From NCBI GenBank assembly GCA_017633115.1, contig JAGBPZ010000062.1, positions 1 to 40,075 of the forward strand: a stretch of 40,075 nt of DNA, read 5' to 3'. The notes under the pieces were generated by a model, which searched no databases, was not told the origin of the DNA, and worked only from the letters and a program-made list of their open reading frames with translations. This document shows, piece by piece, positions 19,298 to 23,532 of the stretch. Position numbers and translations under genes: made by a program. The DNA comes from Erysipelotrichaceae bacterium. GTDB taxonomy: Bacteria > Bacillota_I > Bacilli_A > Erysipelotrichales > Coprobacillaceae. Position 1 is the first letter of the stretch; the number at the start of each line of letters is the position of its first letter.

Positions 19298-20200
19298 TTA
19301 ATCAATCATCAGTTCATCACACATATTTTTTATTTTTTCAATGATTGCAGTTGTTTTCAAACTTTCAACCGGGTCTTTTTTACGTAACGTATAGAGTTTT
19401 TTTAGCTCGTCAAGTGAGTAAATTGAAGAGATAAAAGTTGGTAGATGATTCATATCACGATAATTAATGATTGTTGAAAGCACTTCGTCTCTTGACCATG
19501 TCGTGATATTTTCCTCACCTAATCCATCAATCAATAAATAAGGAATTGTCATAAGTTCAGACATATCTGCAGTGTTAGAATCAGAATTGAATCCAGCTTT
19601 TAAATCAAACAGAAATTGCGGAAAACGACAAATACCAACATCATACCCCTGCTCAGCTAAACTGTTAAGCAATCCACAAAGAATAGTCGTTTTGCCACTG
19701 CCTGTGTGGCCGCTGACATATAATCCCTTGTTACTCTTTTTCTGGACATAAGATAAGACCTTCATCAAAGTGGCTGCAGTATTGGCTGAAAGTGTACTGG
19801 CACGTTCCATGATGTCAAGATCCATTAATTTAATAAACGCATACTCATCAGACATATTATTGAAAAGATAATGAGAGAGTATTCTTTGATTATGTTGATA
19901 TTGTTCACCATATTGACATGGACGGGTTGAAAGCAAGATTTCTCCATCATAGTCTAAATGGTACTGCATACCAACAGCTGTTTTCGGACATTGTTCAATG
20001 CTTTGACAATCACGACATAGATGATGATCTTCTTCAAAGCTCAACAATTCACTCCAGTAATCACTATAAGTCTCATAACTGATGTGATTCTGTTGAATAA
20101 ACATGTAAATGTCTTTGTTTTTAAGAAGTTCTTTTAAGCTGTTTTGTTTACGTTCTTCAAAATCATCCGCTAATTTGACGGTATGACGTACATCAATCAT
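19298..20200 (-). CDS. dnaI: Primosomal protein DnaI (helicase loader ATPase)
   Basis: Loads the replicative helicase onto origin or restart sites together with DnaB and DnaD. The 300-residue product has the N-terminal DnaI zinc region (HLCRDCQSIEQC, about residues 77-88) and a C-terminal AAA+ ATPase with Walker A SGHTGSGKTT (about 164-173) and Walker B YLLIDGLGEE. The ATG overlaps the dnaB stop and has GGAGAT 5-6 bases upstream. It is the last gene of the replication operon. Sequence motifs and the dnaB neighbour together identify it well. Confidence 0.93.
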   Translation of the reverse strand: MIDVRHTVKLADDFEERKQNSLKELLKNKDIYMFIQQNHISYETYSDYWSELLSFEEDHHLCRDCQSIEQCPKTAVGMQYHLDYDGEILLSTRPCQYGEQYQHNQRILSHYLFNNMSDEYAFIKLMDLDIMERASTLSANTAATLMKVLSYVQKKSNKGLYVSGHTGSGKTTILCGLLNSLAEQGYDVGICRFPQFLFDLKAGFNSDSNTADMSELMTIPYLLIDGLGEENITTWSRDEVLSTIINYRDMNHLPTFISSIYSLDELKKLYTLRKKDPVESLKTTAIIEKIKNMCDELMID

Positions 20201-21428
20201 GCTGATCTCCTTTCATCTGGCTGATCATCGCCATCAATGCCTCATTACTCTCTTCATTTTGTTTGACAGGCTTTTCTTTAGCTTTTTCGACAGGTTCACC
20301 ATTATCAAAGCCTTTGGCACATTCATAAGCGTCTCTTGCCGTTTTTAAATGCTTACGTGCCCATGAAGCCCCAATAGTTTCAATATAACTCTTTGGCAAA
20401 CGATTATCATTTTTTGCTAATACATATTCAATTAAGACATTTGTTACTGCAGGTGTCAATCCCAACTGCACCATAAGCGTTTCAACAATAGCTAAATCAC
20501 GCATAATTGGTTCTTTACCACCCTGGCGACTCTTAAGCAATTCATATGGAGAAATTGACTCCAGATAGCGAAGATGTTTATCTAGAGTACTTTGACCATT
20601 AGTTTGACTTTTATCTGCTTCACTTTGTTTTAAATATACATCGTTGAGAGCAACACTGTCGAGAGCATGTTGTGATTTGACACGGTCTTCAAACAATTTC
20701 ATATCAATGTGATCATCATTAAAACAATCTCTTACTAATGATGCCAATGTTAAAGGATCGATCGCATAGACATAACCTAATTGAATGATCTGATCAATTG
20801 ACTGGCCAAGCATTCGTAATGGAATATGATGATCACGCAACGACTCTTCAAAAAGAGTTGTATCATAATCTATAGAAATCCCCTGATTAACCTCTTCATA
20901 CATTTTTGCACGGGTTCTAAGTGGTCGTTCCTGCTTCAAGTCAACATCGAAAACATCTGTAAACTTCACTGGATGCTCTTCATAATTCTTCAAGCTTTCA
21001 GACTTGATTTGGAAATAACGTCTGGTGCGATCATACGATGATGTGCCAATCGTTTGTTTTAGTAATGTAGTGAGAATCTGGTTTTTGAAAAAATTCTTGA
21101 GTGATAAAGGTGAACAGACCTGATATAAATAAGTCGTACGTTCCTTTCTTAAACGAGAATAATATTGTATCAATCCTACCGCCGCTAAAACCTTGATTGC
21201 TTCATCAAGTGTTTCGAGATCACAGTTTAAATAAGAAGTAATGCGACTAATTGGTGATGGATAATGATAATGATTCATGCGCTTACCTTCATTATAAAGG
21301 AACATATAAAGTGCATAGGCATCTTTACCAATTAAAGGCATATATAAATAAATAAGCGTGTCGTTTTGGACTTCATCAAGCGGATAACTATATTGTGAAA
21401 AATAGTCATCTGTAGCATGTAAACTCAT
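20193..21428 (-). CDS. dnaB: Replication initiation/membrane attachment protein DnaB (Firmicutes type)
   Basis: The Firmicutes DnaB helps DnaI load the helicase and links the origin to the membrane; it is not the helicase that carries this name in E. coli. The 411-residue product opens with a winged-helix DnaB/DnaD N-terminal domain (DTLIYLYMPLIGKDAYALY) and has the C-terminal DnaB-II-like helical part (MVQLGLTPAVTNVLIEYVLAKND, SYIETIGASWARKHLKTARDA). It is somewhat shorter than the Bacillus protein (about 470 residues). The ATG shares a base with the coaE stop, and GGAGGTGAT lies upstream. The dnaB-dnaI order is the Firmicutes norm; nrdR, often found just upstream, is absent here. Confidence 0.9.
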   Translation of the reverse strand: MSLHATDDYFSQYSYPLDEVQNDTLIYLYMPLIGKDAYALYMFLYNEGKRMNHYHYPSPISRITSYLNCDLETLDEAIKVLAAVGLIQYYSRLRKERTTYLYQVCSPLSLKNFFKNQILTTLLKQTIGTSSYDRTRRYFQIKSESLKNYEEHPVKFTDVFDVDLKQERPLRTRAKMYEEVNQGISIDYDTTLFEESLRDHHIPLRMLGQSIDQIIQLGYVYAIDPLTLASLVRDCFNDDHIDMKLFEDRVKSQHALDSVALNDVYLKQSEADKSQTNGQSTLDKHLRYLESISPYELLKSRQGGKEPIMRDLAIVETLMVQLGLTPAVTNVLIEYVLAKNDNRLPKSYIETIGASWARKHLKTARDAYECAKGFDNGEPVEKAKEKPVKQNEESNEALMAMISQMKGDQHD

Positions 21429-22717
21429 TATTTAATCACCTCCATCAATTGGTCAATACCCTTATATAAATCCTCAAGACTCTGATTATTTTCAATGACA
21501 TAGTCAGCTAACTGACGTTTTTCATCAAGTGACATCTGAGCATCAATACGTCTTTGCGCATCTTCACGCGTGAGATTGTTGCGCTGCATCAGTCTGATCA
21601 ATTGCTGATCATCATCACAAGCGACAACAATTGTGACATCACAGAGTCTATCAAAATTTGCTTCGAATAATAAAGGCACATCTAGAATGATAATGCTCTG
21701 AGAACAACTTGTAATAGCTTTAATAGTCTCTTTTAAAACATACGGATGAATGATCGATTCAAGCTTTTTTCTCGCTTCGGAATTAGTGAAAACAATTGAG
21801 CCTAACTTACGTCGATCAATAATTCCATCTTCCACACAATCAAAATACGTCTTTATAGCTTCTTTGACTGCTTCATCTTCATAGCTTTGATGCGTCAACT
21901 CATCAGCATCAACAACAATATAGCCTTTCTCTTTGAGATACGCTGACACAGTACTTTTTCCTGTGGCAATGCCTCCAGTTAAACCAATGACTTTTATGCC
22001 TGGTTTTTGTTCAAATAACTGACTCAATTTTTTATAGAAAAGCATATCGCTATGAGGCAAACAATGAGTCTCTGTCTTAAGATAAGCAATACTCTTTTCA
22101 ACATCCTCAACCAAATATATATAAGGATTAAGATCATCATCACATGTTGCCGTTAATGATTCATCAAATAATTCCAAATCAATTGCACTCATCATGACAT
22201 AATCGTTGATAGTAGCACGACCGTTGATACCTTCAATGATCATCTTTCGGGAATCATCACAGACCAGTTCAACAACGATTTCACCACAAAACAGATGTGA
22301 CGGTGTCACTTTGATTAGTTCATTTGCCTCTAACAATAAAGTCAATAATGGTAAATAATCAGTATATTTCTTATAATGTATAACAATGCTTTGGATTTTC
22401 CCAAATCCATTGTTTAATGTTTCTTTTAATGCCGTTACCATCGGATGAAAAAAGATTGGATTGGCATAGCTCAATAAGCAGCATTCTTTCTCAGCTTCTT
22501 CAATTAAGAGAGATAATGCCTTTTCACTTAAATCATCAAGTTTGCTTAAAAGCACACCAGTATGATTATGTATATAAGCAGAAATATCCTGGACATCAGA
22601 TGAAAGATAAACAAGATCGATATCTTCATGGTCATCAGTTACGACTTCCGATACATCTGCTTGCATCAAGGCATTATTGAGTTGTGGACAGTCATCGACT
22701 AATAACCATTTCAACAT
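21428..22717 (-). CDS. coaE: Dephospho-CoA kinase with a Gfo/Idh/MocA-like N-terminal extension
   Basis: Residues ~240-429 are a complete CoaE, which phosphorylates dephospho-CoA to CoA: P-loop IGLTGGIATGKSTV, DADELTHQSY, and the lid/base region RIDAQMSLDEKRQLADYVIENN-like at the end. The first ~235 residues are not part of CoaE. They resemble a shortened Gfo/Idh/MocA oxidoreductase: DLVYLSS, GVLLSKLDDLS (Lys of the usual EKP motif), then FHPMVTALKETLNNGFGKIQ, matching the usual RFxP...LKELI..G.lG.I pattern. The nucleotide-binding GxGxxG is missing. The ATG at 22717 has GGAGA 8 bases upstream and lies just after the mutM stop; a GTG at 22741 would add eight residues. Confidence 0.9.
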   Translation of the reverse strand: MLKWLLVDDCPQLNNALMQADVSEVVTDDHEDIDLVYLSSDVQDISAYIHNHTGVLLSKLDDLSEKALSLLIEEAEKECCLLSYANPIFFHPMVTALKETLNNGFGKIQSIVIHYKKYTDYLPLLTLLLEANELIKVTPSHLFCGEIVVELVCDDSRKMIIEGINGRATINDYVMMSAIDLELFDESLTATCDDDLNPYIYLVEDVEKSIAYLKTETHCLPHSDMLFYKKLSQLFEQKPGIKVIGLTGGIATGKSTVSAYLKEKGYIVVDADELTHQSYEDEAVKEAIKTYFDCVEDGIIDRRKLGSIVFTNSEARKKLESIIHPYVLKETIKAITSCSQSIIILDVPLLFEANFDRLCDVTIVVACDDDQQLIRLMQRNNLTREDAQRRIDAQMSLDEKRQLADYVIENNQSLEDLYKGIDQLMEVIK

Positions 22718-22719
22718 AA

Positions 22720-23532
22720 CTAATATCTCCTGTTTTGACACTTCGGACAGAAATAGGTACCTCTGCCACCAACGACAATTTTTCTAATAGGATGACCACA
22801 CACTTTACATTCCTTTTGTCCATGGACGAACAGTTTAACTTGAAACAAACCATGGATACCATTGGCATCAAAAGTGTTAATAGTAGTACCACCCTGTTCA
22901 ATGGCTTCATTTAAAACATCAGAAGCCACTTGTACCATTTGCACTACACGGTTTCGTGATAATCGTGAGGCTCTTGTACGGGGATCAAGATGCATACGGA
23001 ATAAAATCTCGTTGGCATAAATATTACCAATGCCACAAAGTATGGATTGATCAAGTAAAATCTGTTTAACCGTACGCTTTGAATGATGAATTTTCTTATA
23101 AATCATCTCGGAATCTGCATCCCATGGTTCATCCCCTAACTCATCAAAAGGCGGTAAAATGCGATAGTTGACAGGATCAACAAGTTTCATACGACCAAAT
23201 TTACGGGTATCATTATAACGCAGGTCCTGTCCATTAGACAAATGGAATATCACATGATCGTGTTTTTCATAGGGCTTCTCACCTGCAACAATATTGTACT
23301 TGCCCTCCATACGTAAATGGGACAAAAAAGCAGCATCATCAAGATTAAAGATCAAATATTTTCCATAACGATCAATATCATTGATATGTTGATGAGCAAC
23401 CTGTTCACAAAATGCCTTTGCATCACCATCAATTGTTTTTTGATAACGCAGTTCAACACTGTCAATCATTTCATTTTGCACGAAGTTTTTAAGCGTTCGT
23501 CTGACAGTTTCTACTTCTGGTAGTTCTGGCAT
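22720..23532 (-). CDS. mutM: Formamidopyrimidine-DNA glycosylase
   Basis: Base-excision-repair enzyme that removes 8-oxoguanine and formamidopyrimidines and cuts the backbone. The 270-residue product keeps the N-terminal catalytic PELPEVE (Pro and Glu after Met removal), the helix-two-turn-helix region ILLDQSILCGIGNIYANEIL, and a C-terminal zinc finger with CKVCGHPIRK and YFCPKCQ. It begins one base after the polA stop codon, as in the Bacillus polA-mutM-coaE cluster. Confidence 0.97.
   Translation of the reverse strand: MPELPEVETVRRTLKNFVQNEMIDSVELRYQKTIDGDAKAFCEQVAHQHINDIDRYGKYLIFNLDDAAFLSHLRMEGKYNIVAGEKPYEKHDHVIFHLSNGQDLRYNDTRKFGRMKLVDPVNYRILPPFDELGDEPWDADSEMIYKKIHHSKRTVKQILLDQSILCGIGNIYANEILFRMHLDPRTRASRLSRNRVVQMVQVASDVLNEAIEQGGTTINTFDANGIHGLFQVKLFVHGQKECKVCGHPIRKIVVGGRGTYFCPKCQNRRY

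Follow-up and report, generated by a model that had tools for sequence, protein, structure and literature searches.

The window, a 40,075-nucleotide stretch of DNA from an Erysipelotrichaceae bacterium, encodes a 429-amino acid protein in which dephospho-CoA kinase (CoaE) follows, in a single reading frame, the remnant of an oxidoreductase of the Gfo/Idh/MocA family (Gfo for short). The kinase is probably made obligately as a fusion with a non-catalytic passenger, and the passenger is most likely a gene caught during its loss rather than a new sensor. The locus would provide a snapshot of a domain fusion born from gene loss in a tight operon: when the start signals downstream disappear, a dying gene becomes the obligatory front of an essential enzyme. 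There is a risk of misreading such passengers as regulatory domains.

The fused gene and its kinase domain

The fused gene occupies positions 21428..22717 on the reverse strand when counted from its ATG start codon; a GTG at 22741 is also possible as a start (21428-22741). A Shine-Dalgarno-like AGGAG (22727..22731, reverse strand) is located 9 nt 5' of the ATG, within the last codons of mutM. This upstream neighbor (22720..23532, reverse strand) encodes a Fapy-DNA glycosylase, and the downstream neighbor, dnaB (20193..21428, reverse strand), encodes a replication initiation protein (DnaB_2). The gene order at the locus, polA-mutM-[Gfo remnant/CoaE]-dnaB-dnaI, confirms the position between mutM and dnaB in the replication operon that an initial annotation had given to the joined gene. 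That annotation had also described CoaE as preceded in frame by a segment of about 235 residues, in agreement with the 429-amino acid frame having CoaE at residues 243–415.

These residues are identified as CoaE by Pfam (PF01121, 2e-53, 181.2 bits, cut-off 27), and the CoaE part scores 183.2 bits against NCBIfam TIGR00152, for which the curated cut-off is 65.55. The kinase domain (21431..22000, reverse strand) has the P-loop motif GxxxxGKS, present as GLTGGIATGKS, and the CoaE part is 43–54% identical to the CoaE of 37 relatives. Apart from the fused gene, the window's genome yielded no CoaE match. Based on its intact motifs and single copy, the CoaE part is predicted to be an ordinary working dephospho-CoA kinase. 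It shares with the CoaE of ordinary polA-mutM-coaE-dnaB-dnaI operons the same operon place and a full kinase domain above the TIGR00152 cut-off, but differs by its 239-residue N-terminal extension and the lack of its own start codon. AlphaFold2 modeling of the whole fused protein from its single sequence yielded a mean pLDDT of 37.2, with low values in the CoaE part as well. With the whole 429-amino acid protein as query, the only match in genome contigs was one Myxococcota CoaE, and one relative was found in viral contigs (L126).

The start signals of the kinase differ from those of its relatives. In 23/23 relatives, the coaE start lies 0–13 nt ahead of the last base of the Gfo stop codon, and most of these relatives have an AAGGA, AAGGAG, or GGAG site within the Gfo gene, ahead of coaE. 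At the place of the relatives' coaE ATG or GTG, the fused gene has an ATA codon (residue 241; 21995..21997, reverse strand) with no Shine-Dalgarno sequence ahead. A search for a ribosome-binding site before this ATA, and before the in-frame ATG (residue 225) and TTG (residue 231), found none. Because coaE has lost both its start codon and its ribosome-binding site, and no other CoaE occurs in the genome, CoaE appears to be obligately made as a fusion, and the essential kinase is best produced, as we infer, from the ATG at 22717.

It could be argued instead that there is no real fusion, that CoaE is started internally, and that the frame ahead of it is a relic, either left untranslated or translated on its own. 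Relatives do begin coaE at the same spot, and ATA can start translation at a low rate. We consider this very unlikely, as the ATG has become ATA without a ribosome-binding site, a good AGGAG lies ahead of the upstream ATG, and there is no stop in 239 codons, as compared to the 5–12 stop codons that arose on average when free drift was simulated to the observed divergence. Only 1/1800 runs of unconstrained drift remained free of stops. The need to reach CoaE explains the open frame, and in this sense the frame of the remnant would be under selection.

Identity and losses of the N-terminal region

Residues 1–239 of the fused protein (22001..22717, reverse strand) had no match at E-values up to 10 in Pfam, NCBIfam, or PDB sequences. 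However, when a profile built from the 23 intact operon Gfo proteins was run against these residues with hmmsearch, the score was 30.6 bits, whereas the best of 5000 shuffles of the remnant's residues reached 8.7 bits. The profile search suggested in the initial annotation hence finds the operon Gfo above chance. Alignment of the remnant with operon Gfo by hhalign gave a probability of 95 and an E-value of 3.7e-8 over 199 columns (residues 29–230). The motifs also correspond, as DLVYLSS aligns with DAVYIA, Lys59 with EKP, FHP with RFxP, and GFGKIQ with GxIGDI. These motifs, and the absence of GxGxxG, are as first annotated. The codon-position GC of the remnant in the fused frame is gene-like (0.46/0.27/0.28).

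Gene order in the same bacterial family provides an independent identification. Intact relatives have a separate Gfo gene of ~315 codons exactly between mutM and coaE, and all four operon Gfo genes tested by Pfam contain PF01408 and PF22725. The nearest solved structures to these intact relatives are 3evn, 3e9m, and dimeric dihydrodiol dehydrogenase (2o48). The gene is intact between mutM and coaE in 23/43 family genomes, broken in one (G007), and a fused remnant in one (the window); mutM adjoins coaE without a Gfo-sized gene between them in 15, and three (G001, G002, and G060) were left unscored due to a contig end or to mutM not being next door. In G007, the frame of the operon Gfo gene (L024 2019-2992) is interrupted after ~195 residues, which is another sign of this gene being lost from the operon. 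As compared to Gfo/Idh/MocA proteins (PF01408 plus PF22725), the remnant is co-linear with the operon member and likewise located between mutM and coaE, but is ~80 residues shorter, fused to CoaE, and not recognized by Pfam. From the co-linear profile match and the shared position in gene order, we infer that the remnant is a Gfo/Idh/MocA protein by descent, and the initial description of the segment as resembling a decayed member of this family holds.

The losses are extensive. We defined invariant columns over 24 intact proteins, comprising the 23 operon copies and a copy on contig 128 of the window's genome. The remnant has 22 of the 31 invariant columns changed or deleted, and keeps nine (M1, Y68, K94, A120, P127, G142, G241, G244, and E294). 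The Rossmann GxGxxG/A loop is gone, with 25 columns absent after MLKWLLV, including G8, G10, and A13. The EKP motif reads S-K-L, such that the Lys alone survives and the Glu and Pro are lost. The GG..D.G.Y/H active-site segment of the C-terminal domain is deleted whole, with ~40 residues around it absent. Beyond the gap of ~25 residues, there are smaller deletions of 6 and 4 residues. The glycines of the nucleotide loop, the EKP motif, and the active-site Asp and Tyr are what we take to be the catalytic residues of the Gfo/Idh/MocA family. Judged from its sequence, the remnant cannot function as a dehydrogenase of the Gfo/Idh/MocA type.

A search for Gfo-CoaE fusions in the 42 other family genomes found none, and the CoaE frames there are at most 249 residues. 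The initial annotation had held that absence of the fusion in close relatives would suggest a local error. The absence is real for these 42 genomes, which include no genome of the same genus; the error does not follow. An assembly or sequencing error is the least likely explanation we consider, although the source genome is a 2.0 Mb draft in 171 contigs, no same-genus genome was among those compared, and the fusion has been seen once. An error would need to have produced several independent in-frame deletions along with an open frame whose codon-position GC is gene-like, and contamination of the assembly is 0.76%. That the separate deletions and the loss of the coaE start and ribosome-binding site coincide with an open frame makes a local sequencing error unlikely.

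Divergence of the remnant and its probable history

The mean identity of the remnant to ten orthologues is 0.205 over 236 columns (about 20%), as compared to 0.44–0.50 for intact operon Gfo genes; the contig-128 copy reaches 0.46. We simulated drift with stops forbidden and realigned the resulting proteins, and 105/240 runs were at the observed identity (0.19–0.22). Among these 105, 16 were as similar as the remnant at changed residues, five had a hydrophobicity pattern as good as that of the remnant, and three had a first-codon-position GC as high. In an earlier form of the simulation without realignment, starting from seven genes, 8/280 runs were as high as observed in similarity and 3/280 in hydrophobicity. 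These figures were set aside because most of the apparent constraint disappeared once the simulated proteins were realigned. The divergence of the remnant fits decay in which only the frame was kept open, and is close to that expected of frame-preserving drift. All three measures deviate from drift toward constraint, a weak hint that the remnant may still be able to fold or may retain some role, and residual constraint might come, for example, from a need to avoid misfolding.

The initial annotation had proposed that the dead dehydrogenase could serve as a regulatory ligand-binding domain for CoA synthesis. As a pseudoenzyme regulator, it would bind a sugar, a nucleotide, or a ligand of the CoA pathway and tune CoaE. 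Consistent with such a role, the remnant retains the Lys of EKP and several structural Gly, Pro, and Ala residues, its hydrophobic pattern and first-position GC are above drift, and the intact subfamily adjoins coaE in the window's family and coaD in 4/44 sister-family genomes tested. We nevertheless regard it as unlikely. Both the NAD(P)-binding loop and the GG..D.G.Y segment are deleted, the remnant has 20% identity as compared to 43–54% for the CoaE part, and the fusion occurs in 1/43 family genomes. With its motifs deleted, 42 relatives lacking the fusion, and a divergence near that of drift, the regulatory proposal found no positive support and is not needed to account for the fused gene.

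A full-length protein of the same Gfo subfamily is encoded elsewhere in the window's genome, on contig 128 (L078 8397-9353), and scores 417.8 bits to the profile. Its neighbor is a lon-like gene (named by eye), and it is 51–52% identical to the operon copies of G014, G017, and G026. Other family members also have a Gfo copy outside the operon, with or without an operon copy. With this second copy present, the operon gene may have become free to decay. Operon copies of other genera give the remnant a higher score (118 with G015) than the contig-128 copy does (59). A tree with the remnant and the contig-128 copy as one clade is not rejected (p-AU 0.077), but the tree placement of the remnant means little because its branch has ~10 changes per column.

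The reading we favor, that of a passenger left by gene loss, would involve the following history. The ancestral order in the family, as judged from that seen in relatives, was presumably mutM - Gfo/Idh/MocA - coaE - dnaB - dnaI, in which coaE began at the end of the oxidoreductase gene or slightly inside it. Comparison with these relatives shows that, in the window's lineage, deletions removed the NAD(P)-binding loop and the active-site segment from the Gfo gene, which also drifted far, and that the Gfo stop, the coaE ATG, and the coaE ribosome-binding site were lost as well. Thereafter, CoaE would be produced only as the C-terminal part of the 429-residue protein. The first ~239 residues would be a non-catalytic passenger that at most helps or tolerates folding, and would have to stay in frame because they hold the one good translation start available to an essential enzyme. 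If the dehydrogenase reaction is still required, the intact copy on contig 128 would supply it. Counting against a passenger are the ~240 codons that are still undeleted, as bacteria tend to delete dead DNA, and the draft state of the genome with its 171 contigs.

Other CoaE fusions and gene neighbors

Fusions of CoaE as such are already known from mycobacteria, whereas the Gfo-CoaE fusion was seen only in the window. In mycobacterial CoaE (PMC2765170), the kinase domain on its own stays insoluble unless the C-terminal UPF0157 domain is present, and a regulatory role for that domain was sought but not found. The mycobacterial and window proteins are alike in having CoaE joined to an extra domain of unclear role, but the mycobacterial partner is C-terminal and aids folding, whereas that in the window is an N-terminal dead oxidoreductase. 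The window protein does not belong with CoaE-UPF0157, in which a UPF0157/GrpB-like domain follows the kinase: its CoaE is itself C-terminal, and it scores 139 bits against NF002879, below the cut-off of 215. The mycobacterial precedent, together with the hints of residual constraint above, makes it conceivable that the remnant helps folding or solubility in cis without binding a ligand. This is an improbable account as well, since the mycobacterial partner lies on the other side of CoaE, an N-terminal GST brought no improvement in the mycobacterial protein (PMC2765170), and the CoaE frames of all 42 other family genomes are free of this extension.

CoaE was also searched for over the class (395 genomes, 320 with a match, best rows listed). 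Among the matches listed, none of 17 other CoaE frames of at least 350 amino acids had a Gfo match (E 1e-3). Those long frames that were resolved were MutM-CoaE or CoaE-endonuclease IV rather than further Gfo-CoaE fusions, and the long frames of G037 and G048 were both MutM-CoaE. MutM-CoaE proteins of ~475 residues occur in several families of the class (L079 1406-2821, L031, L032, L127-L129, L134, and L136-L139; L079 alone was checked by Pfam and has three MutM domains). Another CoaE has a C-terminal endonuclease IV-like AP_endonuc_2 domain (L080 1910-3382). These proteins resemble that of the window in joining CoaE to another gene, in the case of MutM to an operon neighbor, but their partners look intact (L079 and L080 by Pfam), unlike the remnant. 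A full-text literature search joining dephospho-CoA kinase with Gfo/Idh/MocA found no paper, nor did searches on MocA pseudoenzymes and on fusions by stop-codon loss; one on MocA with CoA genes gave nothing on a Gfo-CoaE link, as judged from listings.

The fused gene draws attention to an uncharacterized oxidoreductase that adjoins coaE across most of one family and coaD in some members of another. The four sister-family genomes (G043, G058, G084, and G139) are of one genus and have the Gfo gene directly after coaD (L149 2277-3769; L150 1425-2917; G043:C1:502600-504020; G058:C14:167844-169264). This adjacency was obtained by comparing match positions, and the genes of G084 and G139 were also read. 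Outside the window's family, no Gfo gene beside CoaE was seen by eye among the matches listed. Adjacency to two CoA genes in two families may be due to chance, through one or two events, or to a link with CoA synthesis. It is quite doubtful that the Gfo subfamily is an unnoticed partner in CoA synthesis and that the fused non-catalytic module of the window adjusts CoaE activity by sensing a redox ligand or one from the CoA pathway.

Sister-family Gfo frames of ~488 amino acids, considered as a second kind of Gfo-CoaE fusion, proved to be Gfo with an HbpS-like domain. Gfo in this sister family often has such a domain at its C-terminus (assigned by Pfam in L140 1116-2582, with similar frames in L141-L148, L153, and L154).
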